64,000 nt of DNA from a virus. The notes under the pieces are model-generated. The model was not told the DNA's origin and searched no databases. It saw only the letters and a list, made by a program, of their open reading frames with translations. Positions 1,848 to 24,732 of this stretch are shown here, piece after piece (position 1 is the stretch's first letter; every line of letters starts with the position of its first letter). The position numbers were made by a program, and so were the translations under genes. Where the stretch lies: the IMG/VR virus record IMGVR_UViG_3300036766_002181, positions 1 through 64,000 of that record, one strand, 5' to 3'.

Positions 1848-2363
1848 ATGATCAAAAGAAGACAGCCGAACAACGATTCTTTAATAGGCAATTTGGTTAA
1901 AATAAAACATAATAATGACAAAAAAGGAATGGATATTGTTATGACCGTGTTTAATGCCCTACCCAATATAAAAGACAAATGGGACAAGGAAGAGGCAGAA
2001 AGGGAAATATCCTCAGAAGAGATTACAAGCGGGATAGCAAGGGATCTTGCCACAATTGTTTATTTTTCAGCAATGCCAATTGATTTAATTAAAGAAGAAG
2101 ACCTGTTTTTTAATGATTTTTCTCGTGGACTAAGTTCAGAAGAATTAGAAAGATTTGAAAATATAAAAAAAGAATCCTATGCCATGATTGTCGGCGGCCC
2201 GATCAAAAAGATTTTACCATTTTTAAATTGGGAAACCGTTTTAAATTCTCTAGAGCAGCAACAACAAGAGAATAATGGGCCTGTTGTTTTTTATAAATTG
2301 CTTTTAAACAATAGGCTATATTGGGTTTGTGATACCTGTTTAATCTTCGATAATTTGAAATAG
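1848..2363 (+). CDS. Small phage protein, possible 'PG-x-L' beta-barrel family member
   Basis: A 171-residue protein of unknown function. It begins near a GNLVKIKHNN segment and ends with a beta-rich tail (FYKLLLNNRLYWV, then CDTCLIF) resembling the C-terminal half of the small 'PG-D/N-L-Y/V' proteins elsewhere in this window, notably the 24328-24732 product (LVWYEVLIENQIYII). A helical, acidic insertion lies between (KDKWDKEEAE and neighbours). The membership is my inference. The ATG at 1848 is preferred over the in-frame TTG at 1827. The 3' end overlaps the deaminase gene on the other strand by 24 bases. Confidence 0.55.
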   Translation: MIKRRQPNNDSLIGNLVKIKHNNDKKGMDIVMTVFNALPNIKDKWDKEEAEREISSEEITSGIARDLATIVYFSAMPIDLIKEEDLFFNDFSRGLSSEELERFENIKKESYAMIVGGPIKKILPFLNWETVLNSLEQQQQENNGPVVFYKLLLNNRLYWVCDTCLIFDNLK

Positions 2364-2837
2364 TTTAATTCCTGTAGAGGATGCAACCAAAAATGGCTCC
2401 CTATCCTCGTGAGCCTTAAGAAAGTAAATTTTCTTAATGCCGGAATTGGCAATAATCTTAAAACAATTCCAACATGGAGAAACCGTAACAAACATTTCTG
2501 CCTTATTGATGCTGGTTCCATTTCTTGCTGCCTGGGCAATGGCATTTTGTTCAGCATGCACGTCCCTGGAATAGGAAGAATTCTTACTCAGTTTATGACC
2601 ATGGGTGTTGCAATGAGGAAGACCTGAAATTGCTCCATTGTATCCTGTAGAAAGAATTGTTTTGTCTCTTACAATGACAGCACCCACTTGAAGCTTAGAG
2701 CAGGTAGATCTGGTAGAAATGACCCTTGCCAGATTCATGAAGTATTTTTCCCAAGAAATTCTCATTGGTGCAGGTGGTGGTGGTGGTGGTGGTGGTTGCT
2801 GCTGTTGAGCCCTTTTCTTTATTTTTGACACATTCAT
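2340..2837 (-). CDS. Deoxycytidylate (dCMP) deaminase-like enzyme
   Basis: Zinc-dependent deaminase of 165 residues. HAEQNAI (His94, catalytic Glu96) and SPCWNCF (Cys122, Cys125) form the catalytic zinc site. LPHCNTHGH followed by SYSRDVHAE is the arrangement typical of dCMP deaminases of the ComEB/T4 cd type, which convert dCMP to dUMP for dTTP synthesis. The usual TPC is SPC here. The first 24 residues are an odd tail with four Gln and eight Pro, coded by a triplet repeat; Met25 (base 2765) is an alternative start that would remove it. Neither start has a clear Shine-Dalgarno site. The gene is divergent from 2882. Confidence 0.85.
   Translation of the reverse strand: MNVSKIKKRAQQQQPPPPPPPPAPMRISWEKYFMNLARVISTRSTCSKLQVGAVIVRDKTILSTGYNGAISGLPHCNTHGHKLSKNSSYSRDVHAEQNAIAQAARNGTSINKAEMFVTVSPCWNCFKIIANSGIKKIYFLKAHEDREPFLVASSTGIKLFQIIED
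2773..2796. repeat. (GGT)8 triplet repeat
   Basis: Eight perfect GGT units on the plus strand encode eight prolines of the deaminase on the minus strand, next to a GCT/GTT stretch coding Gln. This is a slippage-prone microsatellite whose length changes would keep the frame. Confidence 0.85.
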
Positions 2838-2881
2838 ATATTAATATGGGTAAAATATAAAATAAACTGATATTTATATGC

Positions 2882-3424
2882 ATGGCAATAAAAACAAGAA
2901 TCACATCAAAGGGCATAATTCAAGAACATACTTCTGATATTTTATCAGAATTTGATATTGAGGTTAACCAAAAAGAGGGGCAGGCTCTTAGGCGCAGAAC
3001 CCTAGTCATAAGTCATGAAGATTTAACTGCCGATGACACCACCCAAACATTTTCGATGGGCGCGGCGTTCCCGGCGGGGGCGGTGGTTCAAGTCCTCGAT
3101 GTCGATGTAACGGCGGAGATTGTCGGGCTTACTAACCCGCACGTGAGGCTGGGAGTGCTGGGACAGCCGGGCGGCCCTGGCGAGTTTCTTGACTATGTGT
3201 TGGTCACTGACGGCGGCGTATTAGTCCAGCGAAAATCAATGCCGTACGACATTTCCGGGGATCCTCCAGGCAGCTCGAATAATGCTCTTCACGGCAGCAT
3301 CAGCGGCAGAGAGCCGACTGGCACCATCTCCGCCGACAACAACGTCAACAACGCCAGCGCCGGCAGCGTGACGGTGAACATCGTCTACATGCTTGCGGAT
3401 GATGTAACTCAAGACAATGGTTAA
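2882..3424 (+). CDS. Probable virion/adhesin protein with a GC-rich inserted C-terminal domain
   Basis: A 180-residue protein. The first ten residues (MAIKTRITSK) match the start of the 537-residue protein at 8232-9845 (MSIKTRTRIS), suggesting a shared virion-attachment segment. From about base 3050 to 3410 the base composition becomes much more GC-rich than the flanks, with GC-rich codons. The encoded part is rich in Gly, Val, Asp and Asn and looks like an all-beta domain (AFPAGAVVQVLDVDVTA, later GSVTVNIVYML). I know no family for it. It looks like a transferred domain fused to a native phage N-terminus. The ATG at 2882 follows a TATTTATATG box with no Shine-Dalgarno site. Confidence 0.6.
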   Translation: MAIKTRITSKGIIQEHTSDILSEFDIEVNQKEGQALRRRTLVISHEDLTADDTTQTFSMGAAFPAGAVVQVLDVDVTAEIVGLTNPHVRLGVLGQPGGPGEFLDYVLVTDGGVLVQRKSMPYDISGDPPGSSNNALHGSISGREPTGTISADNNVNNASAGSVTVNIVYMLADDVTQDNG

Positions 3425-3637
3425 TTGTCTTCTATCTCTTTAAAAAATCTATCTAAATTGGCTTCAATATAGCTGTCTATATCAAACGTAGACATGCGGC
3501 GGGGATGTATGGCCATCCCCCCGATAAGATCTCTTTTTGGTTTGGTTCAAACCAAGGTATATACAAATGCTTCCATATGGGCGCATTACACCGTTTTTAT
3601 CAATAGAAATATATAAGTTTCCAGGAACCAATGTCAT
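3421..3637 (-). pseudogene. Frameshifted copy of the small 'PGNLY' family
   Basis: Read from ATG 3637 (overlapping the TGA of the upstream paralogue as ATGA), the frame gives TLVPGNLYISIDKNG and CIYLGLNQT, clearly matching the 3634-3879 product (LIPGNLYVAID, CICLYLGIYKD). It then stops after 49 codons at about 3489. The rest of the paralogous match (DSYIEANLDRFFKEI, ending in TAA at 3421) is in the +1 frame. The switch lies between the A-run near 3540 and a run of six G's (minus strand) near 3520. It may be a decayed gene, a sequencing error at the homopolymer, or, less likely, a +1 programmed frameshift. Confidence 0.65.
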
Positions 3638-3879
3638 GGTATTTCCTTAAAGGAAAGATTTAGATTATGTGCAGTATAGCTATCTGTTACAAACTCGGAT
3701 ACATACATTGTCTCAACAACAAGCATCCCATGCACAATTCTGTCATGACGTTGATCTTTATAAATTCCAAGATATAGACAAATGCAGCCCTTTGGTCTAT
3801 TAACATAATATCCAAACCTATCAATGGCAACATAGAGATTTCCAGGGATTAATTTTAAATCATTATTATTCATCGCCAT
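3634..3879 (-). CDS. Small 'PGNLY' family protein A
   Basis: An 81-residue protein of unknown function. Its parts are LIPGNLYVAID near the N-terminus, a hydrophobic strand CICLYLGIY, a second strand GMLVVETMYV and a helical tail ending NLSFKEI. The same order is seen in the next gene upstream (3866-4129) and in the broken copy downstream. The predicted shape is a small beta-barrel (SH3-like) with a short C-terminal helix; this is inference from alternating hydrophobic residues. ATG 3879 follows AAGGAG, so it is the likely start over the ATG two codons later. Genes 4646 to 3421 form one tightly overlapped operon. Confidence 0.65.
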   Translation of the reverse strand: MAMNNNDLKLIPGNLYVAIDRFGYYVNRPKGCICLYLGIYKDQRHDRIVHGMLVVETMYVSEFVTDSYTAHNLNLSFKEIP

Positions 3880-4129
3880 TTATCTCCTTAAAGTATTTAT
3901 CAAGGTTTTTATTTGTTTGGCTGTTTTCAGCAAACTCAGAGATTTTCTGGGATTGGACAAGTAGCATTCTGTGAACAGATCCCTCGTGAAAGGTTAATTC
4001 AATTGGATTATTGAATAATCCAATATACATACAAACCGTTCCCGGAGATCTTCGAAGCATATAACCATGCCCCGCAAGACCGGGATTGGTGGCAGCATAT
4101 AATTTTCCTGGAATGAGTCTTTTAATCAT
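3866..4129 (-). CDS. Small 'PGKLY' family protein B
   Basis: An 87-residue protein of unknown function, paralogous to its downstream neighbour: RLIPGKLYAATN, then VCMYIGLFNN, HRMLLVQSQ and a tail NLDKYFKEINGDE. The ATG overlaps the TGA of the preceding gene (ATGA), so translation is probably coupled. Together with its neighbours it suggests local tandem duplication. Confidence 0.65.
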   Translation of the reverse strand: MIKRLIPGKLYAATNPGLAGHGYMLRRSPGTVCMYIGLFNNPIELTFHEGSVHRMLLVQSQKISEFAENSQTNKNLDKYFKEINGDE

Positions 4130-4371
4130 AACACTTTACTGTAAAATTTAGGAATATCCATTGGCGAAACAACCTTACGAAATGATCTGCCCTTGCAACA
4201 GTCATAAAAAACATATACATGCACAAGGTTGTTGAAATTACTAGGGCCTTTCAAAAGGCAAACTATAGTATTTGCGTTAATGCTTATGGTTTTGCCGTCC
4301 ATAGACCAACCATATAACAAATAATGAGTTCGATATAGATCGCCCTTAACAAGGGCCACTGTGTTTGTCAT
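4126..4371 (-). CDS. Small 'KGDLYR' family protein C
   Basis: An 81-residue protein of unknown function. LVKGDLYRTHYLL replaces the usual PGxLY start. It is followed by strands around TIVCLLKGP and VHVYVFYDCC and a short tail PKFYSKVL. It fits the same small beta-rich family but is more diverged. The start ATG overlaps the stop of the upstream gene (ATGA) and its own stop overlaps the next start, so it is part of a translationally coupled string. Confidence 0.6.
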   Translation of the reverse strand: MTNTVALVKGDLYRTHYLLYGWSMDGKTISINANTIVCLLKGPSNFNNLVHVYVFYDCCKGRSFRKVVSPMDIPKFYSKVL

Positions 4372-4646
4372 AGTGAAATTATCTTGGCATTGTCAATAAG
4401 ATTTTGTTCTAACCAAGAACCTCTTACAACATAGTATATTTCTTTTTTGCCAATCAAATAAATCTTCCAACAACCATTGTGTTCGGTTGAATCAAACTCC
4501 TTGCCCAAAACAATAAAGGGTTCCTGGTTTCTAAACTTGTATCCTGCCGCCTCAGAATCCACAATTGTATAAATCTCACCAAGCTTAAACTTTATGGGAT
4601 TTGGTTGACTTGCGGGGCCTGTTTCAGGACGAAGAACCAAGGCCAT
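4368..4646 (-). CDS. Small 'LGEIY' family protein D
   Basis: A 92-residue protein of unknown function. KFKLGEIYTIVDSE corresponds to the PGxLY start of the family. EPFIVLGKEF and CWKIYLIGKKEIYYVV supply the later strands. The ATG at 4646 lies inside the 3' end of the upstream gene (overlap of 23 bases). Confidence 0.6.
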   Translation of the reverse strand: MALVLRPETGPASQPNPIKFKLGEIYTIVDSEAAGYKFRNQEPFIVLGKEFDSTEHNGCWKIYLIGKKEIYYVVRGSWLEQNLIDNAKIISL

Positions 4647-5664
4647 ATCCCCGTTCCCTTACAATTGCCTTAACCTGTTCAAGATACTCCTCATGAAATG
4701 CCCAGGTCTTTGTTGCAGGATTATAACGACGACCAGAATTGTCGGTAAGATTCTTAAACCTGTTAATCATGCCATACATCGCAGCATCAGGAGCATACCA
4801 GGGACAAAAAACCGTAAACCAGCTTCCAGCACGGGCCCCATAGACAGGAGCCTTGCTTTCAAGCGGCACAGTAAAGGTGGCAATTGGTTCACGACAAGAG
4901 AGAAGACGTTCAGGAGGAGGAGGAGCAGAGGCGGCAACATTGTCTGATAGTCCCTTTGTACGAGCCTCTTCTGCAATGGCCTCTATGTCTCCATCAATGA
5001 AGGGCCAGTAGCGCAAGGCAATCTCAATGAATCTGTCAGCATGCACAACCGAGGCCCTACAGGGCGTCCTGTCGCCACGATACCGGGGAGTGATGATGCC
5101 AGGAATGCTACGACGAAAGGCCCGCCAGCCATCCTTGGAGGACTTGCCAGACAAAACAATGTCGTTTCCTTCAATGGTCAATACGGCAGGAGTCATGCAA
5201 ACATCGCCCTTAAGAACACCGGCAAGGGCAGCATAACCAATGGCTTCGATAATATCGATTGCACGATTCCTAACAATCGTGGAGCAAGGAAAGGAAAGGG
5301 CACGATCAAACCAATCGGCAACAAAGCGCCAATCTCCACCACTAACCATGACACGAGTAATATCAGGATTCCGAGTCTGGGTTCGGGCAAGCTGGTGAAG
5401 AAACTTGATCTTAAGCCCCTCCTCAAATTCTGAGGCAACCTCAGAATGAAAATCTTGTTCAGGATCAAAAGACAAAAGCAGGGCAGCAGCCTTGGTCAGA
5501 TTGGCAGGCATCTGCCGAGCAAAGATTGCATTGTCCTTATGCCTGCAAACTGGACCCACCCCGTTCTCCCTAGAGGCAGCATCCGTCAATTCCTTACGAC
5601 AACGAGAACAGGCCCGGTAAACACTATCAGAAAACCGTCCAGCGGTGTTTTGATGAAAAGTCAT
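4624..5664 (-). CDS. Zinc-finger (DUF6011-like) protein with HARP-like C-terminus
   Basis: A 346-residue protein. Residues 19-42 read CSRCRKELTD...GVGPVC-x-H, the pattern of DUF6011-type zinc fingers found in phages and plasmids. The middle (roughly 100-240) has no family I recognise. The last 30 residues, RRYNPATKTWAFHEEYLEQV, resemble the small HARP-like module ('Y-x-P-x-TK-x-W-x-F') that accompanies SNF2-type annealing helicases, although no helicase is present here. DNA binding is a guess from these two ends. Codon use is more GC-rich than in the small genes around it. Start ATG 5664 has a GAGG about 8 bases upstream. Confidence 0.55.
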   Translation of the reverse strand: MTFHQNTAGRFSDSVYRACSRCRKELTDAASRENGVGPVCRHKDNAIFARQMPANLTKAAALLLSFDPEQDFHSEVASEFEEGLKIKFLHQLARTQTRNPDITRVMVSGGDWRFVADWFDRALSFPCSTIVRNRAIDIIEAIGYAALAGVLKGDVCMTPAVLTIEGNDIVLSGKSSKDGWRAFRRSIPGIITPRYRGDRTPCRASVVHADRFIEIALRYWPFIDGDIEAIAEEARTKGLSDNVAASAPPPPERLLSCREPIATFTVPLESKAPVYGARAGSWFTVFCPWYAPDAAMYGMINRFKNLTDNSGRRYNPATKTWAFHEEYLEQVKAIVRERGYGLGSSS

Positions 5665-5719
5665 TATTTTAACCTCGGATCAAATAAGCAAGGGTCATAG
5701 AGAAGGCTGCCAGGCCAAG

Positions 5720-5833: not shown

Positions 5834-5857
5834 GCATCCCTCTTCTTTCTGTCTCTC

Positions 5858-5885
5858 ATTATAGCAAATTCATTTGATTTGGCAA
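5858..5885 (-). promoter_or_regulatory. sigma70-type promoter with extended -10
   Basis: On the minus strand: TTGCCA (5885-5880), a 16-base spacer and TATAAT (5863-5858) preceded by TGC. It is placed to drive the 37-residue membrane protein and the operon down to about 3421. The leader of about 20 bases contains a GAGGG ribosome binding site, unlike the other promoters in this region. Confidence 0.7.
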
Positions 5886-5919: not shown

Positions 5920-5937
5920 AAAGTCTGGAGAGACTTT
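5920..5937. terminator. Hairpin at the end of the 5937-6347 gene
   Basis: A perfect 7-base stem (AAAGTCT/AGACTTT) with a 4-base loop overlaps the stop codon of the minus-strand gene. There is no clear U-run after it on either strand, so it would be a weak terminator or an mRNA-stabilising 3' hairpin. Confidence 0.35.
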
Positions 5938-6347
5938 TAAGGCCAATTTTTACCAGACAAACTGTCAGGACAGCCCTCTTCTTTCTCTTCCAACAACTCC
6001 CGAATTTTCTTATATTCCGCAGCATGGTGTTTTTCCCAGGTTCCCTGAAAGGCAAAGGATCTCCGAAGTGTAAGGGGCTTAAAAACGCCAGAAAGCCTGA
6101 CTCTTGCATCCTTGCAAGGAAAAACTGTAAGCTTTTGTAGGCATGGCCTCTTGTCAAGCCCATGAAACCGGGTCATGCCCTCTGTCTGTCCCAACCAGTC
6201 ACAGGGCTCAAGGGACAGCATGACAAGCATGGTACCAAAGGGAATATGCTCCATTTTGGAAAAGTCATCATTTCGGCCGGGAGGCGTATCAAGGATAACC
6301 CCTTGCCTTTTGGCCACAAACAAAAGTGTTCCAGGTACGTTTAACAT
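5937..6347 (-). CDS. Hypothetical protein, possible 'PGTLL' family member
   Basis: A 136-residue protein of unknown function. NVPGTLLFVAKRQ at the N-terminus and HIPFGTMLVMLSLEP in the middle match the 'PG-x-L ... strand' layout of the small beta-rich paralogues, best in the 13805-14149 product. The C-terminal half is longer than in the others (ending KIRELLEEKEEG), with three Cys outside any clear zinc motif. The ATG at 6347 sits only 7 bases after a strong -10 box, so the mRNA should be leaderless. No Shine-Dalgarno site is present. Confidence 0.6.
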   Translation of the reverse strand: MLNVPGTLLFVAKRQGVILDTPPGRNDDFSKMEHIPFGTMLVMLSLEPCDWLGQTEGMTRFHGLDKRPCLQKLTVFPCKDARVRLSGVFKPLTLRRSFAFQGTWEKHHAAEYKKIRELLEEKEEGCPDSLSGKNWP

Positions 6348-6354
6348 GGCAAAG

Positions 6355-6513: not shown

Positions 6514-7053
6514 CTAGTGCCTTGTCTTTCGGCGGGTGTTCATTACCCAATCAAACCAGGGAAAGGAAACACACCAATTTTGATTTTGATTTCTTAGACA
6601 ATGATGCTCATAATGCCAGGGCATGAGAAATCCAAACTTATCATTGTTTGCATGGGACAGGGCATGGGCAATATAATAATACCAGGCAATCAGGAGATAG
6701 GCAATTCCAAGATACTTTGAGAAAAACAAGTAGGTAGGCAAGGCAATCAATAGATTTGAACCAAAGACAAGCCATAGCTCTTTTTTGATCATTCTGGAAA
6801 ACCTGCCGGATTTAAGCAATTGTTCATACTCAACATCTACATTGTCTCTTTTGTTTTCCTCTCTTTCTCGGCATCTCTTGTGATGCTCCCAGTGATAGTG
6901 AAAGAAGCTACCTTTTTTTGTGCCCAGCCTATGAAGAACATACTTGTGAAAGAACCATTCAGAGATATTTTGAGAAACAAGGGCAACAACCAATGCCCCC
7001 GAGAACATAATGATTTTATACAAGATCATTAAAGATATAATAAGCAAAGACAT
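6514..7053 (-). CDS. Membrane di-iron hydroxylase (fatty acid hydroxylase/sterol desaturase-like)
   Basis: An integral membrane protein of 179 residues with the eight-plus-histidine signature of the fatty-acid-hydroxylase superfamily: HKYVLH (36-41), HYHWEHH (52-58), HALSH (130-134) and HYEHH (147-151). These bind two irons that activate O2 to hydroxylate a lipid, sterol or carotenoid chain. Hydrophobic spans flank the motifs (about 3-30, 93-128). It is short for the family but has all the His clusters, so it may be active. It ends one base before the small membrane protein upstream and probably shares its mRNA. Such enzymes are unusual in phages; remodelling of host lipids or of a lipid-like virion component is possible, but the substrate is unknown. 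Confidence 0.8.
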   Translation of the reverse strand: MSLLIISLMILYKIIMFSGALVVALVSQNISEWFFHKYVLHRLGTKKGSFFHYHWEHHKRCREREENKRDNVDVEYEQLLKSGRFSRMIKKELWLVFGSNLLIALPTYLFFSKYLGIAYLLIAWYYYIAHALSHANNDKFGFLMPWHYEHHCLRNQNQNWCVSFPWFDWVMNTRRKTRH

Positions 7054-7384: not shown

Positions 7385-8203
7385 TTATACGAGTTTTTCT
7401 TTTAGGGATTTATAGAAATTTTCAGGGCCAATATCGGAAAGCCCACTCATATTTCCGTCATTAAGTTCGATCAAGATCCAGTCTCCATTTACTTTTCTGG
7501 CCACATCAAAAACCCAAAAACGAATATTCTTCGAAACCCTAGAAATAACTTTATCTATAAATTCTTTTGGCACTTCTTTAAAGGGATCATATTTTCTATC
7601 AAGTTCTTCTGTATGGGAAGACCAATAAAAGCCAGCATCAACAATCTGGCCATCCAAACAAAAAAATCTATATTCTTCAGAAATGGGAAGTTGATTTAAT
7701 CCCTCTGCTAATTTTACAAGCGGCTCGTATTGCCTAATATAAACTTGTTGCCAACCAACATAACCATCCTGAGAAAGTCTATGATAAACCTCTCCTGCCT
7801 CATAACGATCCCTGGCAAAAGCATGGGTATTCCACTGGTGCTTTTTGCTGTTGGTTTGACCCTTAAGAACAAATGGCCCTTCTTGCGGAATTTGGTCCAG
7901 GGCAAACCAGGTTCTTGGGGTTATGTCTTCTACGTCATAATACCAATTGCGGAGATCTGCCACATAACAATGCTCTTTATAGGAATTGATTATTGTGCTT
8001 CCAAGGGCCTCTATATCTTCACATAATTCTTTGTTATAGGGCAGCGCCGAATATCTTGGGATAACAAGTCTATTTGGTGGGATGGCCGTTCGCCTGTCCA
8101 CAACTTCAAAATAGTTTTTTGCTACTTCTCTTTCTTCTTCAAATTCTAAATTTGTAGAATTCCTAAAATATATTATTGGTTCCATAACAAACCAACGTAG
8201 CAT
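7385..8203 (-). CDS. ATP-grasp enzyme (R2K-like phage clade)
   Basis: A 272-residue protein. GPFVLKGQTNSKKHQW carries the ATP-binding lysine after a small beta strand, SEEYRFFCLDGQIVDAGFYW forms the central sheet, and WILIELNDGN near the C-terminus supplies the metal-binding Glu and Asn. That order is the ATP-grasp fold. The compact form with a 'K...R' pair recalls the R2K clade common in phages, thought to ligate amino acids or peptides to proteins or small molecules; the substrate is unknown. Start ATG 8203 or 8185 (MEPIIYF) are both possible and neither has a Shine-Dalgarno site. It lies just upstream of the membrane hydroxylase pair and may work with it. Confidence 0.7.
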   Translation of the reverse strand: MLRWFVMEPIIYFRNSTNLEFEEEREVAKNYFEVVDRRTAIPPNRLVIPRYSALPYNKELCEDIEALGSTIINSYKEHCYVADLRNWYYDVEDITPRTWFALDQIPQEGPFVLKGQTNSKKHQWNTHAFARDRYEAGEVYHRLSQDGYVGWQQVYIRQYEPLVKLAEGLNQLPISEEYRFFCLDGQIVDAGFYWSSHTEELDRKYDPFKEVPKEFIDKVISRVSKNIRFWVFDVARKVNGDWILIELNDGNMSGLSDIGPENFYKSLKEKLV

Positions 8204-9919: not shown

Positions 9920-10246
9920 TTAACTTATTTTAATAAATAATTTGGCCGTTTTATTGGCCTTAACATACCATTTATTGGCTGGCATATTACAAACCTTGCC
10001 ATCAGACAAGTTTAATACCTTTATAAAGTACATGTCTTCAATTCTTCTAACTCCCAAATAAACCAGATAGATAGAAGAAGTGCCATGCTCGCCGGATAAC
10101 AGAGTAACCTTCTCGTTGCCGTAATAGTAATTGTTTAATACCTCTAGATCATCGCCGCAAATCAGAGTTACACGCTCCTGGCTTGGTATTTTATAGATTT
10201 CTCCCAAAACAAGATCTTTAAGAAACCTTGGTTTAAAAAATGTCAT
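9920..10246 (-). CDS. Small 'LGEIY' family protein E
   Basis: A 108-residue protein of unknown function. DLVLGEIYKIPSQ matches the PG-x-L-Y start of the small beta-rich family. Later strands are SSIYLVYLGVRR and MYFIKVLNLSDGKV, and the tail is basic (WYVKANKTAKLFIK). It follows its upstream neighbour by 4 bases. Confidence 0.6.
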   Translation of the reverse strand: MTFFKPRFLKDLVLGEIYKIPSQERVTLICGDDLEVLNNYYYGNEKVTLLSGEHGTSSIYLVYLGVRRIEDMYFIKVLNLSDGKVCNMPANKWYVKANKTAKLFIKIS

Positions 10247-10250: not shown

Positions 10251-10472
10251 CTATCGGTCTGTTAATCTTGAAAATTGTTCTTTTATGTAGGCCTTGTTTG
10301 TTCTATATTTTGTATTGTTGGCAAAAAAGAGGACATCCTCAAATTTGTTATAAACTCCAATAAAAAGACAAATCTGACCTGCCTTACAGACTACATCAGA
10401 GGAAAACGAATCAATTGCCTCAAGGCCCTCGTAACGAATCAAATCTCCTGGTTTTAGGCTATCATGAATCAT
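10251..10472 (-). CDS. Small 'PGDLIR' family protein F
   Basis: A 73-residue protein of unknown function. SLKPGDLIRYEGLE and CLFIGVYNKFEDVLFF follow the family layout, and the tail is basic (IKEQFSRLTDR). A strong Shine-Dalgarno site (AGGAG) lies upstream of ATG 10472, so it is translated in the normal way, unlike the first genes of the transcription units. Confidence 0.65.
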   Translation of the reverse strand: MIHDSLKPGDLIRYEGLEAIDSFSSDVVCKAGQICLFIGVYNKFEDVLFFANNTKYRTNKAYIKEQFSRLTDR

Positions 10473-12737: not shown

Positions 12738-12986
12738 TCATAAATAGACAAACTTGTCTCGTAGGAGAAATTGATACCAATAATAACTTTGCACAATGCC
12801 CTTGCCCGTAAAGATCACAATTTCATCTTTGGGCAGAAACCTTCCACCATTTGGTCCTTTATCAAAGGCTTTATGAGATTTAAAATTGAGGTTATAGCGA
12901 ACATAGGTATCAAGGTCTGAACGTAAGGCATAAGATTTATAAAGTTCTCCCCGAGCAAGATCTTGAATGTTTACACAATCTATCAT
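12738..12986 (-). CDS. Small 'RGELYK' family protein G
   Basis: An 82-residue protein of unknown function. DLARGELYKSYALR corresponds to the PGxLYR start of the small beta-rich family, and DEIVIFTGKGIVQSYYWYQF gives the later strands. It lies 20 bases after its upstream paralogue, without a visible Shine-Dalgarno site. Confidence 0.6.
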   Translation of the reverse strand: MIDCVNIQDLARGELYKSYALRSDLDTYVRYNLNFKSHKAFDKGPNGGRFLPKDEIVIFTGKGIVQSYYWYQFLLRDKFVYL

Positions 12987-13006: not shown

Positions 13007-13366
13007 TTATATGGAAACCTTAGAAAATTTAAGGCATCTACCCGCACTGGAAGAGTAATTCTCGCCATAATACTCTATATAAATTTTTCTGCCGCACAAC
13101 ATAAATGACATGGAAAAAACTAATTGACCCGTGTAAAGAAAAGTTTCGCTTTGAATATAATATAGTATATTGTTTTCTATTAAAGTATCTGGTACTTTAT
13201 TAAGTAATATTTTTGTATTCTTTACAGAAGCATAATAATAAGCTCCGTAGCTATCCGTTACTTTCTCTGCTCTATATAATTCTCCTGGAATAGGCTCAAC
13301 ACTTTCTGGGATAAAATGCCGAGAATTGTTAGAGGTTTCCAAAGAAAAATTCCTTTTTATCTGCAT
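13007..13366 (-). CDS. Small 'PGELYR' family protein H
   Basis: A 119-residue protein of unknown function. VEPIPGELYRAEKVT is the family signature. LLNKVPDTLI, TFLYTGQLVFSMSFM and KIYIEYYGENY follow as strands. The start is uncertain: ATG 13366 lies 38 bases inside the end of the deaminase gene with GAGG touching it, while a TTG at 13342 has AAGGAA at good spacing. Either way the family motif is kept. Confidence 0.6.
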   Translation of the reverse strand: MQIKRNFSLETSNNSRHFIPESVEPIPGELYRAEKVTDSYGAYYYASVKNTKILLNKVPDTLIENNILYYIQSETFLYTGQLVFSMSFMLCGRKIYIEYYGENYSSSAGRCLKFSKVSI

Positions 13367-13808
13367 CCTCTAGAGAGGCTACACTCATAACCCCAAAGGT
13401 CTGATCATCGATCGTATAGAAGGCCTTCTTGATTCCATAGGAAGAAAGAATTTCTTGGCAAATCTTGCAAGGCCTTGCCAAACCAAGACCTCGACCTCCC
13501 TTGTTTGTGGTAGGAGTGGTAGGAGCCAGAATTCTTGCAATATACATCTTGGAGCCACGGAGATCAGTCTTGGCACGAGCCTGTACAATGGCATCCATTT
13601 CTGCATGGGTGCTAAGGCAGTAGGTTCTGTTTGCTCCACGAACCAAATCCGTATAGTGCTCTACAAAGGCATTTGTGTTTCTCTTATTGAAACCGACAGA
13701 AATAATGCTGCCGCCGCTAACGAGAACCGCACAAAGATGATAATCAAGAAATTCATCATAGTTGTTGGCCAGGGCATTCTTGACAGCAAGCTTAAAATAT
13801 CGATTCAT
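13329..13808 (-). CDS. Cytidine/dCMP deaminase-like enzyme (second copy)
   Basis: A 159-residue zinc deaminase fold: STHAEMDAI (His68, Glu70) and ARPCKICQEI (Cys114, Cys117). It differs from the first deaminase: it lacks the LPHCN/HAEQN arrangement of dCMP deaminases and has a Gly-rich loop (TNKGGRGLGLARP) before the second zinc motif. It could be a cytidine, guanine or modified-base deaminase; the substrate is not readable. The ATG overlaps the TGA of the upstream gene (ATGA). It sits between two small PGxLY proteins. Confidence 0.75.
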   Translation of the reverse strand: MNRYFKLAVKNALANNYDEFLDYHLCAVLVSGGSIISVGFNKRNTNAFVEHYTDLVRGANRTYCLSTHAEMDAIVQARAKTDLRGSKMYIARILAPTTPTTNKGGRGLGLARPCKICQEILSSYGIKKAFYTIDDQTFGVMSVASLEDADKKEFFFGNL

Positions 13809-14149
13809 ATTACATTCTCAAATCCTTCTTTTCGTATCTGTCTATAAAAAACTCTTTTTCTTTCTTTCTCAAGATCCCTATCCACAAAATGAATAAGTCT
13901 TAAAAAATGATTCTGAACCTCTGAAGAGGAAAGAAAATTTTGTATCATGCCATCAGCTATTCTCAGGCAGCATACATTCAAATCATAGTGCTCCTCCTGT
14001 GCTCTCCTGGGCGTTACAGAGACTATCATAAGCAAGTTTTGTGGGATAGACACCCCGGCACTGGCGGCAACATCATTTCGAAAGCGTATCAGGGCTCCAG
14101 GCTTAAGAAGCCCGATGGTTTCCATTGTCTTGTGCCGTTGTCTACTCAT
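13805..14149 (-). CDS. Small 'PGALIR' family protein I
   Basis: A 114-residue protein of unknown function. LLKPGALIRFRND and NLLMIVSVTPRR match the small family, then YDLNVCCLRIADGM, and a basic helical C-terminus (DRDLEKERKRVFYRQIRK). An ORF reaches up to 14203, but the promoter at 14163-14191 lies inside it, so I place the start at ATG 14149, about 7 bases from the predicted transcription start. It is the first gene of the operon that runs to about 12738 or beyond. Confidence 0.6.
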   Translation of the reverse strand: MSRQRHKTMETIGLLKPGALIRFRNDVAASAGVSIPQNLLMIVSVTPRRAQEEHYDLNVCCLRIADGMIQNFLSSSEVQNHFLRLIHFVDRDLEKERKRVFYRQIRKEGFENVI

Positions 14150-14162
14150 TGCAATATTGACC

Positions 14163-14191
14163 ATTATCGCATATTTGTGTCGAGAAGTCAA
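14163..14191 (-). promoter_or_regulatory. sigma70-type promoter, near-leaderless
   Basis: On the minus strand: TTGACT (14191-14186), a 17-base spacer and GATAAT (14168-14163) with TGC before it. The start point is expected near 14156, 7 bases before ATG 14149. No Shine-Dalgarno site fits in the leader. Confidence 0.7.
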
Positions 14192-14201
14192 GCAATTGAA
14201 C

Positions 14202-14223
14202 ATATGGGCTTTTTGGCCTATAT
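14202..14223 (-). terminator. Hairpin after the terminase gene
   Basis: Arms ATATAGGC/GCCCATAT (one mismatch) around a six-base A-rich loop, just after the terminase stop codon and before the next promoter. The position suits termination of the late operon, but no U-run follows. Confidence 0.3.
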
Positions 14224-14230: not shown

Positions 14231-17200
14231 CTAGTCTCGACCAAACATCCATCTAAAAGGATCCCAGACCTGATTGTTGTAGTCGTGAACCTGGCGGCTA
14301 TTAAGCCCCCTGTGGGCCTCTGAGTCAAGATGCTTCCTATACTCGGTTGATCCAGGGGTTGCCCTTGTAACAGGCGAAGGAAGCGAGAAGAAGCCATCTG
14401 AAGTCTTTCCTGTAAGTGGATTTAAAACCCTTGTCTCGACAGACATACCCTTAACGAGAGCCCATTGAGCCTCTGTGTTTTGAAACTGGTTTCTACCAGA
14501 TGCCTCAAACAAGTCGCAGCCGATTGCAAGGCTATTTCCACTCCATACGGCTTTGCCATTTCTTTTTACAAAAAGAGTATGATTTTTATCCAGAATTAAA
14601 CAACCAACCTTTCCAGTATAAAACTGTTTTGTAGCCTGATTTTTTTCATGATGATTTATTCTTGGTTCGTTATGTCTTCGAGATATTGAAACAATATGAG
14701 TTTGATGTTTGCTACGAATTGTTCTTCCATTAATTGTTCCGCCAGTTTGTTTAAGATAGTTTGGGGGCGTAAGAACAATGGAGCTTAATCTAAGCTTTAA
14801 GACAAGCTCGACAACATCTGCTGCCAGGCCTGGGCTTGTTGTAACGTAGTTTGTTAATTCTCCCTTTTTGTTTCTACAACCATCACCTAAAAACAAACCT
14901 AAAAACAATTGTTCTAAAGCCGGGATGTCAAGATCAAGAAATTCTCTTGGTATTCTTTTCGTCGGGGCTATTCCCGGTACAAGGGCCTTTATAAACGTTG
15001 CCAGCCTTGTGTCCATTATTTCAAAACTATTATTTTGTGGCCTATATGCGTAACTGACACCAAGATCGCTTAATCTTTCCAAAAGCTCTTGCATGGGAAT
15101 ATATGCTTTTGATTTATAGCACTGACTTAAAAACAGACGATTTTTATTGCCACTTCCCTCAGATATAAAAAAACCTAAAAGCAACATAAAATCTTTCATT
15201 GGTAGTATTAGGTTTGGTTTTTTTCTTCCATTTTTGGAAGAAAAACCAGGAATTGTTATTGATTCTCTTTTATTACCTTGCCAATTATCTATATTTCTCT
15301 TTAAGCGAAAATGCTTTCCGGTAAGTTTTTCTGCTTCAACAAAGCTCCACGGACGATATGTGTTACCACCGGCACTAACTGAAACAAGCATTCTATGATT
15401 TTCGGTCACAAGCAAATCGACTTGTCTTGTATGGAAATTGATCATCGGCCGATCTACAACAAATTTGTCAACTGTTTCTAAATTGGTTGCCAATTCAAGG
15501 TTTCCAGTTTTTATGTTTAATGAATAAACCATGTCTCCTGACTTTACATCGGAGAAATACTTCCAGCCTTTTTCTGTTAAAACCTCTGTTTCTTGATCGT
15601 AACACATTACAAGATCATCATTTTTTCCTTTGATGGCCTGTGGCTTGTTTCTTTTCCAAATAAAGGTTTGAAGTTCTTCAAAAAGTCTTTTTGAATAAAC
15701 CTTAAGAAAACCATTTCTAAGATTATTTTCAAGCTTTGCCAAGATTTCTTCTCTTGTTCTTTGATTAACTGTTAGGCCAGGAAAATCATTTGGGCCCACC
15801 TCGTTAGAGACATAGGTCATATAAATGTTTTTTTGAAATTTCTCATAAAATAACTTTGGATAGGCGGCCTCTTTAAGTTTTTGGGCGCAGGCAACTCCAA
15901 CGCTGTTAAGTTCCTGACAAATCATGGCCGTGTTATATTGCCTGCCATATTGCATCAAAATTTCTGCAAATTCATCTGGTGGATTTTTTCCTTGAAAGTC
16001 TGCAACAACTTCTTCGGCGGTTGTATCAATAACATGAAATGCAGAAAAATCTTCTCCATCCCCTCTTGCAACGTCTCCAGAAACGATGTACTCGTGTCCT
16101 GGTTCAGGATACTTCCAAATCCACGTTTCATAACGTCCGTGTGCCCTTCTTTCTATTGGTTCCTTTACAGCCAACATAATTTTTTCAAGGGCCTCGCCTT
16201 TTAAAAATGTATCACCTGATGCTTGATAGAGGCAGTTGTGAACTATTAAACTATCTGCAATATAAGAATGATCGTCTTCGACTTCAAGATTATAAACCAT
16301 CTTGCCGCCCGCTTTAAGAGTAGCTTTTTGATATTGAAACCCACCAACAAAATATTCTTTTGGCAAAAGAAAGCTACGAGACGTTGGCCTGTCCAAAAAT
16401 TCTTTTGTATGTACCTGGTCTGTTAGTGTAAAAATATTTCTTTTTTTAGGATCTTTGATTTTTGTTAAACCATCAAATTCAAGATAAGATGGTTCATTAT
16501 TCCAGTAGCCAATTCTAGTGTAATGCCCAAATAACGAAAGAAAAGTTCTAAGCTGATAAAGCATTTTTTCAGACTTGCAAACAACTTTTAACTTATTGTC
16601 AAGATCGTGAAAAAATGGATGATCTCCATCTCCTTCAAAGTGACCAACGATTAGGCCTCGTATAAATTCTTTATTTGTTTTTATAATATTTTCCATATTA
16701 TAATGTTTTGTTCGAGCGTCACCATCATAAATAAAATGTCTTATAAGTGCTCTAGCAAACCTATTGCTACTCAAAATAACATAACATTTCGAATAGGATC
16801 TTTTACAATCAAAATAATTGTAACCAAGATTTGATAAATAATCTCGACAAAACTTACCAAGAGTATCGATTTCTTGGTGGTGGAAAGCCAGGCCGACTAC
16901 GTTATGTCTTACATGGCCTTCTGCGGCGCACAAACCAATAAACCGTCCCAAATTAAAATCAATTGGTATGTATCTTTTTGTTTTTAAACAACTCTTTTGC
17001 CTTGAATATTTTACAAAATTATCTGTTACGGTCTTATTGGCTACGTCGAATTGTGCTAAATCAATATATTTTTTCTTCCTTGAATTGTCTTCTAGTATGT
17101 TTTCAAATTGAAGATGTGGAAAAAGGCATCCGTAGATTACTCTTCGAGTGTGGTTTGTTTCATGCTTCCATAAAAGCAGGTCATCCAAAGATTCAAATTT

Positions 17201-18274
17201 ATTCTCAACCAAAAGATTTTTATGAAGTTTTCTAAAGTGCTTTTTATTGTTTTTTCCCTTTGGGACTTTAAAGGCATAGTTCAAAATTGGATGATTTCCT
17301 GTAATTAAAATATCGTTTTTTCTATTTCCTGGGGTTGAAACAGAATATAGGTTTTCATGTTCGCCAATTTGACGACAATAGGTTTTTTCAACTTTTTTAA
17401 ATCGTCCCTTGTGAGTTAAAACCAGATCCCCAATTTCAATATCCTTTATTTTTTTACAGCCATTTGAAGTTATTATGTTGGTATCTGGTCCCACACATAA
17501 TAATTCCTGCGCCACTCCCATCTCACCTTTTGCCTGGAGAAGGGCTTTTCTTTCTCTTTGAAACCACTTCTCATCTCGTTCAGGATGAACATGCCATGGA
17601 AGCTCAATTGAATGAAAACCATTCTCTCCCTGTTTGGCTCCTATCCATAGATCATAAAACAATCCTTGGGCTCCATTTGGTGTTGAAATAAAAATAACAG
17701 AGCCGCCGTTTGAAAGGGTTGGTTGCAAGCCAAGCCATAGGTCTGAAACGCCCTCAATATGTGCAGCCTCGTCAATAATCATAAGACTTAAGCTTTCAGA
17801 ACGACCTGCATCTGCCGAGGTTGGAATTGCCTTTATCTTTGAACCATTGCTAAAGCTTAAAGATTTTTTTGTATCCTCTGTAAGCTTTGGCATAACAAGC
17901 CAGTCGGGAAGATGATCAAGGGCTGTTCTTACTTTTCTTATGAAGTTCTGGGCCGTGTCTAGCTTGGTAGCAACAACAAGAATGTTTTTCTCTCTCTGAA
18001 ACAGTGCCAACCAGAGGGCATAGGCTGCTGAAGCCGTAGACAATCCAAGTTGTCTGCTTTTATTAACAATTACATACCTGTGTTTTTGAAATGCCTCTAG
18101 GCAGTCTTCCTGATAGGGAAAGGTATGAAACTTAACAAGGCCCTTTTTGGGATGGGATATTTTGACGTATTTGTTTGTGAAATACTTTACGTCAGTACCA
18201 CACTTATAAATCTCTTCGGTTTGTTCTTTCTTATTTGGCCAATAAGAACTTTCTTGGGATTTCAGCTTTGCCAT
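14231..18274 (-). CDS. Terminase large subunit (gp17-like) carrying two inteins
   Basis: The DNA-packaging motor: an ATPase and a headful nuclease. The precursor has 1347 residues; removing inteins 260-680 and 891-1247 leaves 569, close to T4 gp17 (610). ATPase motifs: SRQLGLST Walker A (73-80), SLMIIDEAA Walker B (163-171, Asp168-Glu169) and ISTPNG coupling motif (196-201). RNase-H-like nuclease: VSGDVARGDGEDF (Asp734), ICQELN (Glu788) and KNDDLVM (Asp886). Intein 1 splits the ATPase from the nuclease after QELL; intein 2 lies just after the third nuclease aspartate. Both must splice for a working motor. The first gene upstream has a 24-base spacer. There is no Shine-Dalgarno site before ATG 18274, but there is a TATTTATATG box. 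Confidence 0.93.
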   Translation of the reverse strand: MAKLKSQESSYWPNKKEQTEEIYKCGTDVKYFTNKYVKISHPKKGLVKFHTFPYQEDCLEAFQKHRYVIVNKSRQLGLSTASAAYALWLALFQREKNILVVATKLDTAQNFIRKVRTALDHLPDWLVMPKLTEDTKKSLSFSNGSKIKAIPTSADAGRSESLSLMIIDEAAHIEGVSDLWLGLQPTLSNGGSVIFISTPNGAQGLFYDLWIGAKQGENGFHSIELPWHVHPERDEKWFQRERKALLQAKGEMGVAQELLCVGPDTNIITSNGCKKIKDIEIGDLVLTHKGRFKKVEKTYCRQIGEHENLYSVSTPGNRKNDILITGNHPILNYAFKVPKGKNNKKHFRKLHKNLLVENKFESLDDLLLWKHETNHTRRVIYGCLFPHLQFENILEDNSRKKKYIDLAQFDVANKTVTDNFVKYSRQKSCLKTKRYIPIDFNLGRFIGLCAAEGHVRHNVVGLAFHHQEIDTLGKFCRDYLSNLGYNYFDCKRSYSKCYVILSSNRFARALIRHFIYDGDARTKHYNMENIIKTNKEFIRGLIVGHFEGDGDHPFFHDLDNKLKVVCKSEKMLYQLRTFLSLFGHYTRIGYWNNEPSYLEFDGLTKIKDPKKRNIFTLTDQVHTKEFLDRPTSRSFLLPKEYFVGGFQYQKATLKAGGKMVYNLEVEDDHSYIADSLIVHNCLYQASGDTFLKGEALEKIMLAVKEPIERRAHGRYETWIWKYPEPGHEYIVSGDVARGDGEDFSAFHVIDTTAEEVVADFQGKNPPDEFAEILMQYGRQYNTAMICQELNSVGVACAQKLKEAAYPKLFYEKFQKNIYMTYVSNEVGPNDFPGLTVNQRTREEILAKLENNLRNGFLKVYSKRLFEELQTFIWKRNKPQAIKGKNDDLVMCYDQETEVLTEKGWKYFSDVKSGDMVYSLNIKTGNLELATNLETVDKFVVDRPMINFHTRQVDLLVTENHRMLVSVSAGGNTYRPWSFVEAEKLTGKHFRLKRNIDNWQGNKRESITIPGFSSKNGRKKPNLILPMKDFMLLLGFFISEGSGNKNRLFLSQCYKSKAYIPMQELLERLSDLGVSYAYRPQNNSFEIMDTRLATFIKALVPGIAPTKRIPREFLDLDIPALEQLFLGLFLGDGCRNKKGELTNYVTTSPGLAADVVELVLKLRLSSIVLTPPNYLKQTGGTINGRTIRSKHQTHIVSISRRHNEPRINHHEKNQATKQFYTGKVGCLILDKNHTLFVKRNGKAVWSGNSLAIGCDLFEASGRNQFQNTEAQWALVKGMSVETRVLNPLTGKTSDGFFSLPSPVTRATPGSTEYRKHLDSEAHRGLNSRQVHDYNNQVWDPFRWMFGRD
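14534..15604 (-). other. Intein 2 in terminase, with LAGLIDADG endonuclease
   Basis: Residues 891-1247 (357 residues). Cys891 opens block A (CYDQETEVLTEKG), VTENHRMLV is block B, and LLLGFFISEGSGN and FLGLFLGDGCRN are the two LAGLIDADG helices. HTLFVKRNGKAVWSGN closes it with Asn1247, followed by Ser1248 as the +1 residue. The residue before the last Asn is Gly, not the usual His, as in some phage inteins. It sits right after the catalytic Asp886-Asp887 of the nuclease, a highly conserved and hence typical homing site. Confidence 0.9.
16235..17497 (-). other. Intein 1 in terminase, with LAGLIDADG endonuclease
   Basis: Residues 260-680 of the terminase precursor (421 residues). It starts at Cys260 (CVGPDTNIITSNG, block A) and has ITGNHPIL (block B, ThxH-like). 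Two LAGLIDADG-type helices follow: FIGLCAAEGH near 445 and GLIVGHFEGDGD near 540. It ends with VYNLEVEDDHSYIADSLIVHN-type blocks F and G, where His679-Asn680 are the splice residues, followed by Cys681 as the +1 nucleophile. All splice residues are present, so splicing and homing both look intact. Confidence 0.92.
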
Positions 18275-23000: not shown

Positions 23001-23298
23001 TCTCTCTTGTTAAATTTCCAACAGAAATATCATGATTTCCTAAAAGTGTATAACAGGGAGCAATTTTTGCAAACTCCTCAAACATCCAGGCAAGTTCTTT
23101 GATGGACTCTGGCGTGATCCCCGCCATTTTGGTATGCCAAACATCACCACCATTGATTATTAGATCTGGCTTAACCTCTTCTCTTAGCTCTTGAAAAAGA
23201 TATTCAAAGGTTTTTCTGTATTCTCCATGACGAGCAATGCCACGCCAATGGATGTCGCTGATGTTGCAAATTTTTGGTCCCCTGTTGTTTTTAATCAT
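20062..23298 (-). CDS. SbcD-SbcC (Mre11-Rad50/gp47-gp46) single-chain fusion
   Basis: A 1078-residue protein joining two subunits normally encoded separately. Residues 1-390 are the Mre11/SbcD nuclease: SDIHWRG (14-20), GGDVWH (50-55), GNHD (87-90), LYHGP (159-163) and GDIHKK (194-199). Residues 400-1078 are the Rad50/SbcC ATPase: GPNRVGKSS Walker A (434-442), FSSQGN Q-loop (551-556), coiled coils about 610-750 and 770-920, an apex with Cys754-x6-Cys761 (zinc-hook position, normally CxxC), ELGSGMEKT signature (987-995), DIFVLDES Walker B (1015-1022) and THS switch (1052-1054). In T4 the pair resects DNA ends for recombination-dependent replication. The frame is continuous. It overlaps the downstream gene by 4 bases. 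Confidence 0.92.
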   Translation of the reverse strand: MIKNNRGPKICNISDIHWRGIARHGEYRKTFEYLFQELREEVKPDLIINGGDVWHTKMAGITPESIKELAWMFEEFAKIAPCYTLLGNHDISVGNLTRESLVSSVHRLLKNPNLVLMEKSGLYEIDFCNTNLYAYSLLDKETWDDIKPDKNSNRINIALYHGPVAGCETDGNWRFGKEERSVDYFKDYDFTILGDIHKKQFLGYRPDKNKIEKPWIGFVGSTIQQNHGESIEKGYLTWDLRAKDDWDVTFKQIPNFAPFVSVDWKGSVEETIDEYKKIWHNKETSFVEGARFRIISKEFIPQIEAKNLTLELVKNGAAEVTFKTDVSSKMEFFDAGGIKILKKSLVKDPDTLISLYLDYVAENRDSYSLSEEQYLEATRLIHEYLQQLLRTPENSSAKNVVWSLKDYKFDNLYGYGENNELDFGKISGIIGILGPNRVGKSSVIAGILYVLFNMTDRGSIKNALIINRDKDYCTGAVRISVGGADYEIERRTERDKKDKEKSVTSVNLWKIKKDEVGAELKISINGITKDETDEIIKKMIGTGEDFLLTAFSSQGNLNRFIENKATKRKETLNRFLELDAFDKLYDFAKDDFAKLNGRNEGFDLDDWTSETERTKNEIAKIEATLEKLELKLGLLNTKRDDLNVWLRSHEQQGNLVELKNLDELRQNIFTAQREWEDAEVRLKDLKDKLKNEISELGLLEKALKKFDIDELTNNKLKMKELESTVGELRVSLEREKSELKSQERSVKKLTIIPCGDEYPKCPYIIDGHKAKETIEIQKELVGKLVSDYEGNYVILKKYFAEEIEKQLAEQTKTTMNIVIKKSAISELKSAIEQTVAKIDALKREIKEKTNKTESLQDSIDFVAGEEFQKKQGQLASIVIDLSALTAEKNDSLVLFGRRKETLQKLVKQEEDNRDLISKLKIIDSIQSAFSKNGIPAMVLKTQLPAINAEIANILGNLVDFSISLETDTTGNVMDIYLDDGKGKRLVELGSGMEKTICSLAIRVALGNLSSMPRPDIFVLDESFGFLDDENLQKGIKMLTMFREYFKSIFVITHSSVIKEAVDKIIEVKNNGIESSISL

Positions 23299-23309
23299 TT
23301 ATTCTTTTT

Positions 23310-24353
23310 TTAAACAATTCCGTTTATTTGATTTTTCAGGAACCAGTCTTGATTGTAAACGATAGCATCCTTCAATAGGTTATTAAACTCAGTTTGATCC
23401 CTAAGACTTCCAATGTCTTTTTGATCATTACCAAGAAAAATTATCTTAACCGAAACTCCATTCTCAAAAAATTTCTTTGCAAGCCTGAAGGTACTTTTTT
23501 TGGCATCAGGATCCAGGGCAAGGACAACAGGAGTCTTGTTTGTTACAATTTCTTGAAAAAGTTTAAAATGAGTAGGCAACTCACAGCCAAGCAGGCAGGT
23601 GGCATTATCGGGGCATTTAAGAAGATCAAAGACGCCTTCTACAAGAATCAATTCTTCTTTCCAGTTTATGTTTAATTCATTAAAAACAATGTCATCTCTC
23701 CTAATATGAGGATTTTCATATTTGGGAGAAAGATTATCGCTAATTGCCCTGGCACTGTAGTAGTTAACTCGTCCCAGTTTGTCCAAGGAAGGCACGATTA
23801 CGCGCCCTGGGAGCCCTTCTGAGGCATTTGAGATGCCCAGCCGCCATCTCCATAGGGTTGACTCCTGGCTGGCTCCACGGTCTTTTAAATAATTCAGCGC
23901 AAAATCAACCCTTGGACTGTTTCTATCTGCCGTTGCCAATAAAATAAAGTCATCTGGCAGCTTAACAAACTGATCGCCCAACTGGGCTTCCTTGTCTTTG
24001 TTTCCGTTTATTAAGAGAATATCCTGCTCCAGAAAAGTCTTGGTATAGTGTACCAGAAATTCAGGCTTGTACTTCTTTATGAGAAATTTAAGATTCTTTC
24101 CTGAAAGACCACAAACCCAGCAATGAGAAACCTGAGAATCAATCATTATAGACAATTTCTTCTTAAAGTAAAAGTTTCCCTTTTCCTCCTTGCAGGCAGG
24201 ACAAACAACCTCTATATTCTTTCCGCCAGAAGTAAGTTTATAATCGCCAAAAACCTGATAGCAAAAATCAAGAAATTGACTTTCTGTATAGAGCGTTTGA
24301 TTATTAAATTTTTTGTTGTTATATGGCTTAGATACTATTGTTGTCATCGACAA
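23310..24353 (-). CDS. DNA primase (DnaG/gp61-like)
   Basis: A 347-residue primase that makes RNA primers for lagging-strand synthesis. CPACKEEKG (Cys51, Cys54) and HCWVCG (Cys78, Cys81) form the zinc ribbon. ASEGLPGRVIVPSLDKLG begins the RNA polymerase core. ILVEGVFDLL (Glu239) and LALDPDAKKS (Asp281, Asp283) are the TOPRIM metal residues. It is about the size of T4 gp61 and has no helicase domain. It follows the small protein at 24328-24732 with an overlap of 26 bases and lies 11 bases before the SbcCD fusion. Confidence 0.9.
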   Translation of the reverse strand: MSMTTIVSKPYNNKKFNNQTLYTESQFLDFCYQVFGDYKLTSGGKNIEVVCPACKEEKGNFYFKKKLSIMIDSQVSHCWVCGLSGKNLKFLIKKYKPEFLVHYTKTFLEQDILLINGNKDKEAQLGDQFVKLPDDFILLATADRNSPRVDFALNYLKDRGASQESTLWRWRLGISNASEGLPGRVIVPSLDKLGRVNYYSARAISDNLSPKYENPHIRRDDIVFNELNINWKEELILVEGVFDLLKCPDNATCLLGCELPTHFKLFQEIVTNKTPVVLALDPDAKKSTFRLAKKFFENGVSVKIIFLGNDQKDIGSLRDQTEFNNLLKDAIVYNQDWFLKNQINGIV

Positions 24354-24732
24354 TATCCGAAATTTGACCTATATGAATTATATAAATCTGATTTTCAATT
24401 AAAACCTCATACCAAACAAGGCCTGGTCTTTTTTTCCACCGGCCCAAAAGCATTCCAATCTTTGATGGTTCGAAAATTCTAAGAGCCTCAATTCGTTGGT
24501 AATAGTTTGGAAGACTGGCATCATCAACGGCACCAAGAGAAGAAGAAACAGGGCTGGCCGGTAAAGCGGCACCAACAAGAACCTCCTTCCAAACAAGAAA
24601 GCCTTCTAAGCCCGAAGACATGCTACCAGAAAGTAATGATGGCGAGGATAGTGAATCTTTGGTTTCCGGTTCATAGCCTACCCTTACCAGATCTCCTGGC
24701 TTCCATTTGATATTAAAAACGTCGTTATTCAT
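24328..24732 (-). CDS. Small 'PGDLVR' family protein J
   Basis: A 134-residue protein of unknown function and the clearest member of the small beta-rich family outside the accessory region. KWKPGDLVRVGYEP is followed by a low-complexity Ser/Leu-rich insert (about 27-70), then SKIGMLLGRWKKR and LVWYEVLIENQIYIIHIGQI. The pattern of strand, GMLLG turn, W-Y-x-V-L-x-(E/D)-(N/G) turn and strand looks like an SH3/KOW-type barrel. It sits between the primase and resolvase genes, overlapping both, which ties the family to the replication block. Confidence 0.65.
   Translation of the reverse strand: MNNDVFNIKWKPGDLVRVGYEPETKDSLSSPSLLSGSMSSGLEGFLVWKEVLVGAALPASPVSSSLGAVDDASLPNYYQRIEALRIFEPSKIGMLLGRWKKRPGLVWYEVLIENQIYIIHIGQISDIVDDNNSI

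Follow-up and report, generated by a model that had tools for sequence, protein, structure and literature searches.

In the first 64,000 bases of the 244,715-bp virus record IMGVR_UViG_3300036766_002181 (bases 1-64,000, hereafter called the window), small genes with an N-terminal PGxLYR-type motif were found to belong to a new, previously undescribed protein family which, as counted by profile searches, comprises about 56-60 loci genome-wide, around 50 of them beyond the window. That these loci form a real family of diverged paralogues is, on this evidence, practically certain. Chances seem evenly balanced that the products are diversified SH3-like binding modules which would serve host takeover or anti-defence. 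The genome is taken to be that of a large T4-like phage, because a T4-type terminase, a T4-like baseplate wedge protein, an SbcCD-like fused nuclease, a primase and a RuvC-like resolvase are encoded in the window.

Identification of the family

Direct pairwise comparison joins only four window genes (3634, 3866, the pseudogene 3421-3637 and 10251; genes are designated by their first coordinate), so that by this method alone the family would look like a small cluster. When 3634 was used as query against the rest of the record, a match was obtained at 209.8 kb; the region 205-215 kb is a dense array of further PGxLYR genes, and more are found in 193-205, 215-226 and 68-74 kb. The motif [PK]Gx[LI][YI][RKMTSCV] occurs in 32 of 586 open reading frames (ORFs) taken from ~103 kb of the phage, against 0.68 expected from shuffled proteins. 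An iterated profile search converged at 43 members, and at 56 after three stretches had been added. When the entire record was searched in six frames with a profile of alignment A3, 53 matches were obtained (E <= 0.013), 33 of which are contained in A3 itself and a few of which are fragments or remnants. About 119 kb of the record, window included, was read as selected stretches, and the remainder was covered by the six-frame A3 search.

Membership of the window genes

Thirteen genes of the window had been grouped as one family in a first-pass annotation, and all 13 ORFs are present, 1848 on the plus strand and the other 12 on the minus strand. Membership was assessed with an independent hidden Markov model (HMM) built from 49 members, all located outside the window, which was run against the 316 window ORFs of at least 40 amino acids (aa) and against 6,320 decoys (20 shuffles per ORF); the whole-family alignment A1 was excluded as a search model because it contains the genes under test. 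Ranks 1 to 7 of 316 are held by 13007, 4126, 3634, 3866, 10251, 12738 and the pseudogene 3421, and none of the decoys scored as high. These seven and 4368 were also the top eight with an earlier HMM derived from 36 outside members. The grouping is thus upheld by significant profile similarity for seven genes, with 4368 as a borderline, probable eighth, and is not upheld for 9920, 1848, 13805, 24328 and 5937, which score at background level, show no significant similarity and have at most the N-terminal motif in common.

The best-ranked gene, 13007..13366 (-), encodes 119 aa (PIPGELYRAEK...ILYYIQSETFLYTGQLVF; E 1.3e-6, hhalign probability 94). It is followed by 4126..4371 (-), of 81 aa (LVKGDLYRTHY...IVCLLKG...YVFYD; E 1.2e-5), by 3634..3879 (-), also of 81 aa (LIPGNLYVAID...CICLYLG; E 1.3e-4, hhalign probability 90), and by 3866..4129 (-), of 87 aa (E 1.8e-4, BLAST E-value of 3e-17 to 3634). 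The two remaining intact members are 10251..10472 (-), of 73 aa (LKPGDLIRYEG...ICLFIG; E 6.8e-4), and 12738..12986 (-), of 82 aa (LARGELYKSY...EIVIFTG...FLLRDKFVYL; E 3.3e-3). The pseudogene 3421..3637 (-) (rank 7, E 0.016; 46% identity to 3634 over 39 aa) is frameshifted: PGNLYISIDK...SICIYLG is followed, in a different frame, by ...SYIEANLDRFFKEIEDN, and the pseudogene consists of an N-terminal ORF (3482-3637) and a C-terminal remnant. The probable member 4368..4646 (-), of 92 aa (KLGEIYTIV), stands at rank 8 with an E-value of 0.11, a level at which 0.15 false hits are expected. The tandem overlaps reported earlier are confirmed, with 4 nucleotides (nt) shared at 3866/4126, 4126/4368 and 3634/pseudogene.

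Among the genes at background level, three are kept as candidates, namely 9920..10246 (-) (108 aa, VLGEIYKIP; rank 14), 13805..14203 (-) (132 aa, LKPGALIRF; rank 41, with a weak BLAST match of 0.009 to 10251) and 24328..24732 (-) (134 aa, WKPGDLVRV; rank 146), and two of those first listed, 1848..2363 (+) (171 aa, rank 17) and 5937..6347 (-) (136 aa, rank 147), are unsupported as members. One family member had been described as lying inside the replication operon. As to position this is correct, 24328-24732 being flanked by a primase (PHROG, 1e-30) and a RuvC-like resolvase (PHROG, 2.8e-12), but its family membership is unsupported by sequence: when the profile of the 24328 group was compared with that of the family, nothing was found in common beyond the PG motif. 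The AlphaFold2 (AF2) model of 24328 with its positional counterparts had a mean predicted local distance difference test score (pLDDT) of 35 and was set aside as uninformative. The slot between the RuvC-like and primase genes holds small beta-rich genes (PG/KPGD-type or similar) in L009/L010, L011 and L127, and a methyltransferase gene or nothing in most other relatives.

Sequence anatomy and predicted fold

A typical module has ~75-120 aa, and three separate conserved segments are recognised in the family alignment: PGxLY[RK], an ILMFI-like strand and an F[L]xNGKxV hairpin. Over the full set, the consensus reads M..K.NKLIPGELYRIKK...(13-50 residues)...KKNSILMFIKK...(3-30)...LIFLYNGKLVYSS...(helix)...L..I, or in short form LIPGxLYR - variable - xILMFI - variable - FLyNGKlVy. 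Best conserved are the Gly of PG (41/41), the Leu (40/41), the Tyr (38/41) and the hairpin Phe (37/41). Conserved positions correspond to the hydrophobic core and to Gly/Pro turn residues, and no obvious catalytic pattern was seen among them. The loop after beta1 varies from 13 to 50 residues and that after beta2 from 3 to 30; the beta3-beta4 turn is nearly constant. The earlier description of a diversifying set agrees with these features, the core members being joined by strong profile homology while their loops vary in length around a nearly fixed hairpin turn. A first-loop proline, apparently conserved in 34 of 35 sequences of the alignment, is not claimed as a family feature, since a proline is expected somewhere in a 25-residue loop and would be picked by the aligner.

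Two members, 66956-67330 and 67327-67713, carry an N-terminal predicted transmembrane helix followed by a basic stretch and then the module. According to the positive-inside rule, a basic segment after the helix would leave the module on the cytoplasmic side of the membrane. Separately, the 259-aa product of G000:205266-206045 (L012:267-1046) looks like the family module interrupted by a long insert (IGSLWRV ... LKILIEGRSLII), with a profile E-value of only 0.17.

The member 71276-71572 was modelled by AF2 with 33 aligned members (window members included), giving a pLDDT of 78.4 and a predicted template modelling score (pTM) of 0.70. The model has strands at residues 10-13, 43-51, 61-66 and 69-73, a helix at 78-85 and a last strand at 88-90, in the order of an SH3 domain (beta1, RT-type loop, beta2, n-Src-type loop, beta3, tight distal turn, beta4, helix, beta5). 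The module is therefore likely, judging from this model, to be a five-stranded SH3-like small barrel in which PGxLYR would form the first strand, ILMFI the second and FLxNGKxVY the tight hairpin; the fold is called only likely because the SH3 strand order of the model is not matched by any significant Foldseek hit. The Foldseek list against the Protein Data Bank (PDB) includes, below significance, the small barrels of MSL3 (chromo-barrel), Papi (Tudor) and PsaE. Against viral models, small uncharacterised phage proteins were returned, often with a probability of 0.8-0.99 but with E >= 0.05. The SH3/KOW-like character suggested by the first-pass annotation is upheld for the core members by the strand order of this model.

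Genomic arrangement and evolution

Members occur in small tandem packs at 66-75, 181-187, 194-200 and 206-221 kb, often with 4-nt overlaps and with unrelated genes between the packs, and include triplets, for example at 75.0-75.6 kb and 181.3-182.1 kb. In the window, the significant matches of the independent HMM are confined to 3.4-13.4 kb; the structural block has none. Paralogues have a median identity of 21% over aligned positions (maximum 43%), adjacent copies being slightly more alike than random pairs (0.235 vs 0.217, p 0.009). Between neighbouring paralogues the nonsynonymous divergence (dN) is 0.50-0.76 and the synonymous divergence (dS) 1.1-1.5 where it can be estimated, the latter close to saturation. 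Broken copies are found at 3421-3637, 195961 and 212441. Taken together, the pattern looks like an old birth-and-death process under constraint and not like a recent amplification. A search for upstream motifs returned A-rich and purine-rich 8-mers and no shared motif, and a terminator scan gave no excess over expectation. At G000:212158-212605 (L012:7159-7606), a decaying copy carries a short internal tandem duplication, in which DFFYCSAEEDGKR is read twice in different frames.

Distribution in other phages

Sequence searches of Pfam, PHROGs, PADLOC and PDB gave no convincing match for any member, and no KOW or SH3 Pfam family was among the profile matches; the first-pass statement that no described system matches this array thus holds for these four collections. 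Single-protein queries found no relatives of 3634 in IMG/VR, of 3866, 13007 and 71276 in INPHARED, or of 13007 in bacterial genomes, and the family alignment has no stretch of sufficient conservation to serve as a query for related loci. The A3 profile gave five weak matches, in four records, when run on 25 related records, and no family match was found in 46 further phage records. An expansion of such size is seen only in this phage, many of the compared records being fragments.

Around these weak matches, three of the related jumbo phages have arrays of their own of small xGxL[YVWI] genes, in L121 (G001), L122 (G011) and L123 (G002). When 756 ORFs were ranked with the family profile, the top four were array genes from these three regions (E 5e-5 to 4e-3; best decoy 0.14). 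Counts of a looser motif, observed and expected, showed enrichment in L121 (13 vs 5.4) and L123 (17 vs 7.2) and a less distinct one in L122 (9 vs 5.5), with 25 vs 17.1 in control regions; because the controls are slightly enriched too, the profile result is given more weight than the motif count. The array of L122 (G011:76000-86500) has five tandem genes of xGKLY/TGELY type; the four that were compared share 49-72% identity, and dN/dS in the tandem set is about 0.36-0.51; it is more recent and suited to selection tests.

When a conserved 237-aa gene (29492-30205) is taken for comparison, the closest relatives of the phage are uncultured IMG/VR contigs, often longer than 100 kb, with identities up to 70%; among isolates, only weak matches were obtained, in Flavobacterium phage immuto and Microcystis phage Mel-JY01.

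Functional interpretation

With their loops and one face of the sheet, small SH3-like barrels contact and bind either proteins or nucleic acids; in T4-like phages, the genes for host takeover are located in accessory regions. In the reading that we favour, the family would have grown in the accessory regions of a T4-like jumbo phage through ancient duplications in tandem, the scattering of small packs and the loss of genes by decay; a conserved core would carry two long loops that are free to vary; the modules would grip different host proteins, in takeover or anti-defence; and some copies would be held at the inner membrane by the added transmembrane helix. A protein-binding repertoire is favoured because the core is kept, the loops vary, isoelectric points are not uniformly basic, some members are membrane-anchored by prediction and the copies appear to be retained under constraint. 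Protein binding as such is put at slightly under an even chance. A more specific version, for which our expectation is low, is that one scaffold in ~60 copies, some of them membrane-tethered, would present two hypervariable loops as exchangeable binding surfaces, analogous repertoires having been built independently by related jumbo phages.

Several observations weigh against host-directed binding modules. Foldseek returned nothing significant from PDB (best E 0.47; TM-scores to small barrels ~0.3-0.45), and PADLOC and PHROGs gave no link to defence or counter-defence, only isolated single-member matches with E-values of ~0.01 or worse. Near-saturated dS makes dN/dS a weak guide. Sigma-70-like sites, which could have pointed to early expression, were not above shuffles, although this phage may use promoters of another kind. 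No close relatives of the phage were found with fatty-acid-hydroxylase-like or SbcCD-like baits or in the 3634 search of IMG/VR.

Nucleic-acid-binding barrels in the style of KOW, MotB or Sso7d, coating or remodelling host or phage DNA or RNA, the copies reflecting dose or sequence preferences, are an unlikely alternative. Binding of nucleic acid is common among small SH3-like barrels. In T4, the early protein MotB, for which a KOW/SH3-like domain is predicted, is a DNA binder that changes the binding of H-NS (PMC7827196), and a small SH3-fold protein is encoded beside phage DNA polymerases (PMC7824862). The family is, however, not consistently basic (median isoelectric point 7.7, below 6 in 11 of 41 members), its conserved basic patch comprises no more than a single R/K following PGxLY and a single K/R of the hairpin, and two members are predicted to be membrane-anchored.

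The array might also be for the most part non-adaptive: in a roomy genome, small accessory genes would have duplicated in tandem and decayed, and few copies would be individually important. The frameshifted or truncated copies, the short internal tandem duplication and the slight excess of similarity between adjacent copies would fit this, yet ~50 copies have full ORFs at ~21% mutual identity with dN below dS, and therefore seem to have stayed under constraint throughout a long divergence; similar arrays are also kept in other jumbo phages. Such an origin is judged improbable as the main explanation. Virion components, for example decoration or internal head proteins, are a very unlikely reading: small virion proteins and internal proteins are numerous in T4-like phages, but the window members lie outside the structural block, and neighbours elsewhere are an RNA ligase and, by eye, a polynucleotide kinase, a deformylase and glycosyltransferases. 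Chance or convergent occurrence of a short PGxLY motif in unrelated small proteins, which may hold for the 5 of the 13 listed genes that match at most at the motif, is scarcely credible overall and is ruled out for the core set by the motif excess (32 vs 0.68 expected), the out-of-window HMM with zero decoys as high and the three separate conserved segments, the lack of any match in the 46 other phage records arguing in the same direction.

Relation to known systems

The SH3-like fold class is known already, and so, as rare cases, are jumbo-phage expansions of tiny modules; the scale seen here is unusual. The family resembles the KOW, Tudor, chromo-barrel and PsaE barrels in predicted strand order, in size and in its weak Foldseek similarity to MSL3, Papi and PsaE, and differs from them in having no significant structure or sequence match and no KOW profile match, in its long variable loops and in its ~60 copies per genome. 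T4 MotB, a host-takeover protein that acts on a host nucleoid factor, is likewise small, has a predicted SH3-like barrel and is encoded in an accessory region of its phage genome (PMC7827196), but it is a single conserved gene with a second, OB-fold domain, and no Pfam or PHROG link leads to it from the family. The zinc-ribbon expansion of Bacillus phage G, with about 35 copies and called unprecedented in a survey of jumbo phages (PMC7824862), is also a case of one tiny module multiplied within a single jumbo-phage lineage; its fold is unrelated, and the family described here is larger (about 56-60 copies). The SH3-fold protein beside the DNA polymerase of some jumbo phages (PMC7824862) shares with 24328 its small size and a replication neighbourhood, whereas the neighbouring gene differs and 24328 could be tied neither to the family nor to a fold.

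With a single family of this size, a large share of the unknown genes of this phage becomes one question and not many. Should different host proteins be bound by the modules, these would be a natural library of binders and inhibitors of bacterial proteins, and if the repertoire reading were true they would be the phage counterpart of the effector repertoires of other parasites. By comparing the arrays of related phages, one could learn which hosts or defences lie behind the growth of jumbo-phage genomes.

Other features of the gene context

A fatty-acid-hydroxylase-like membrane protein is encoded at 6514-7053 (-). A relative of it (34% identity) is found within the small-gene array of G001 (L121:8507-9046), so that the neighbourhood is partly shared with that phage. 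An R2K-clade ATP-grasp protein, 7385-8203 (-) (Pfam, 1.3e-22), adjoins the array. Two dCMP/cytidine-deaminase-like genes are present in the one phage, at 2340-2837 (-) and 13329-13808 (-), and a DUF3293 protein at 1263-1835 (-) has a weak match to S-adenosylmethionine lyase, with a possible anti-restriction function. The terminase large subunit, 14231-18274 (-) (1347 aa), contains two intein-like insertions with Hint and LAGLIDADG signatures. Immediately upstream of the RuvC-like gene, at 25279-25758 (-), a protein with a TnsA-like endonuclease N-terminal domain is encoded, and it is found in the same region in most relatives.

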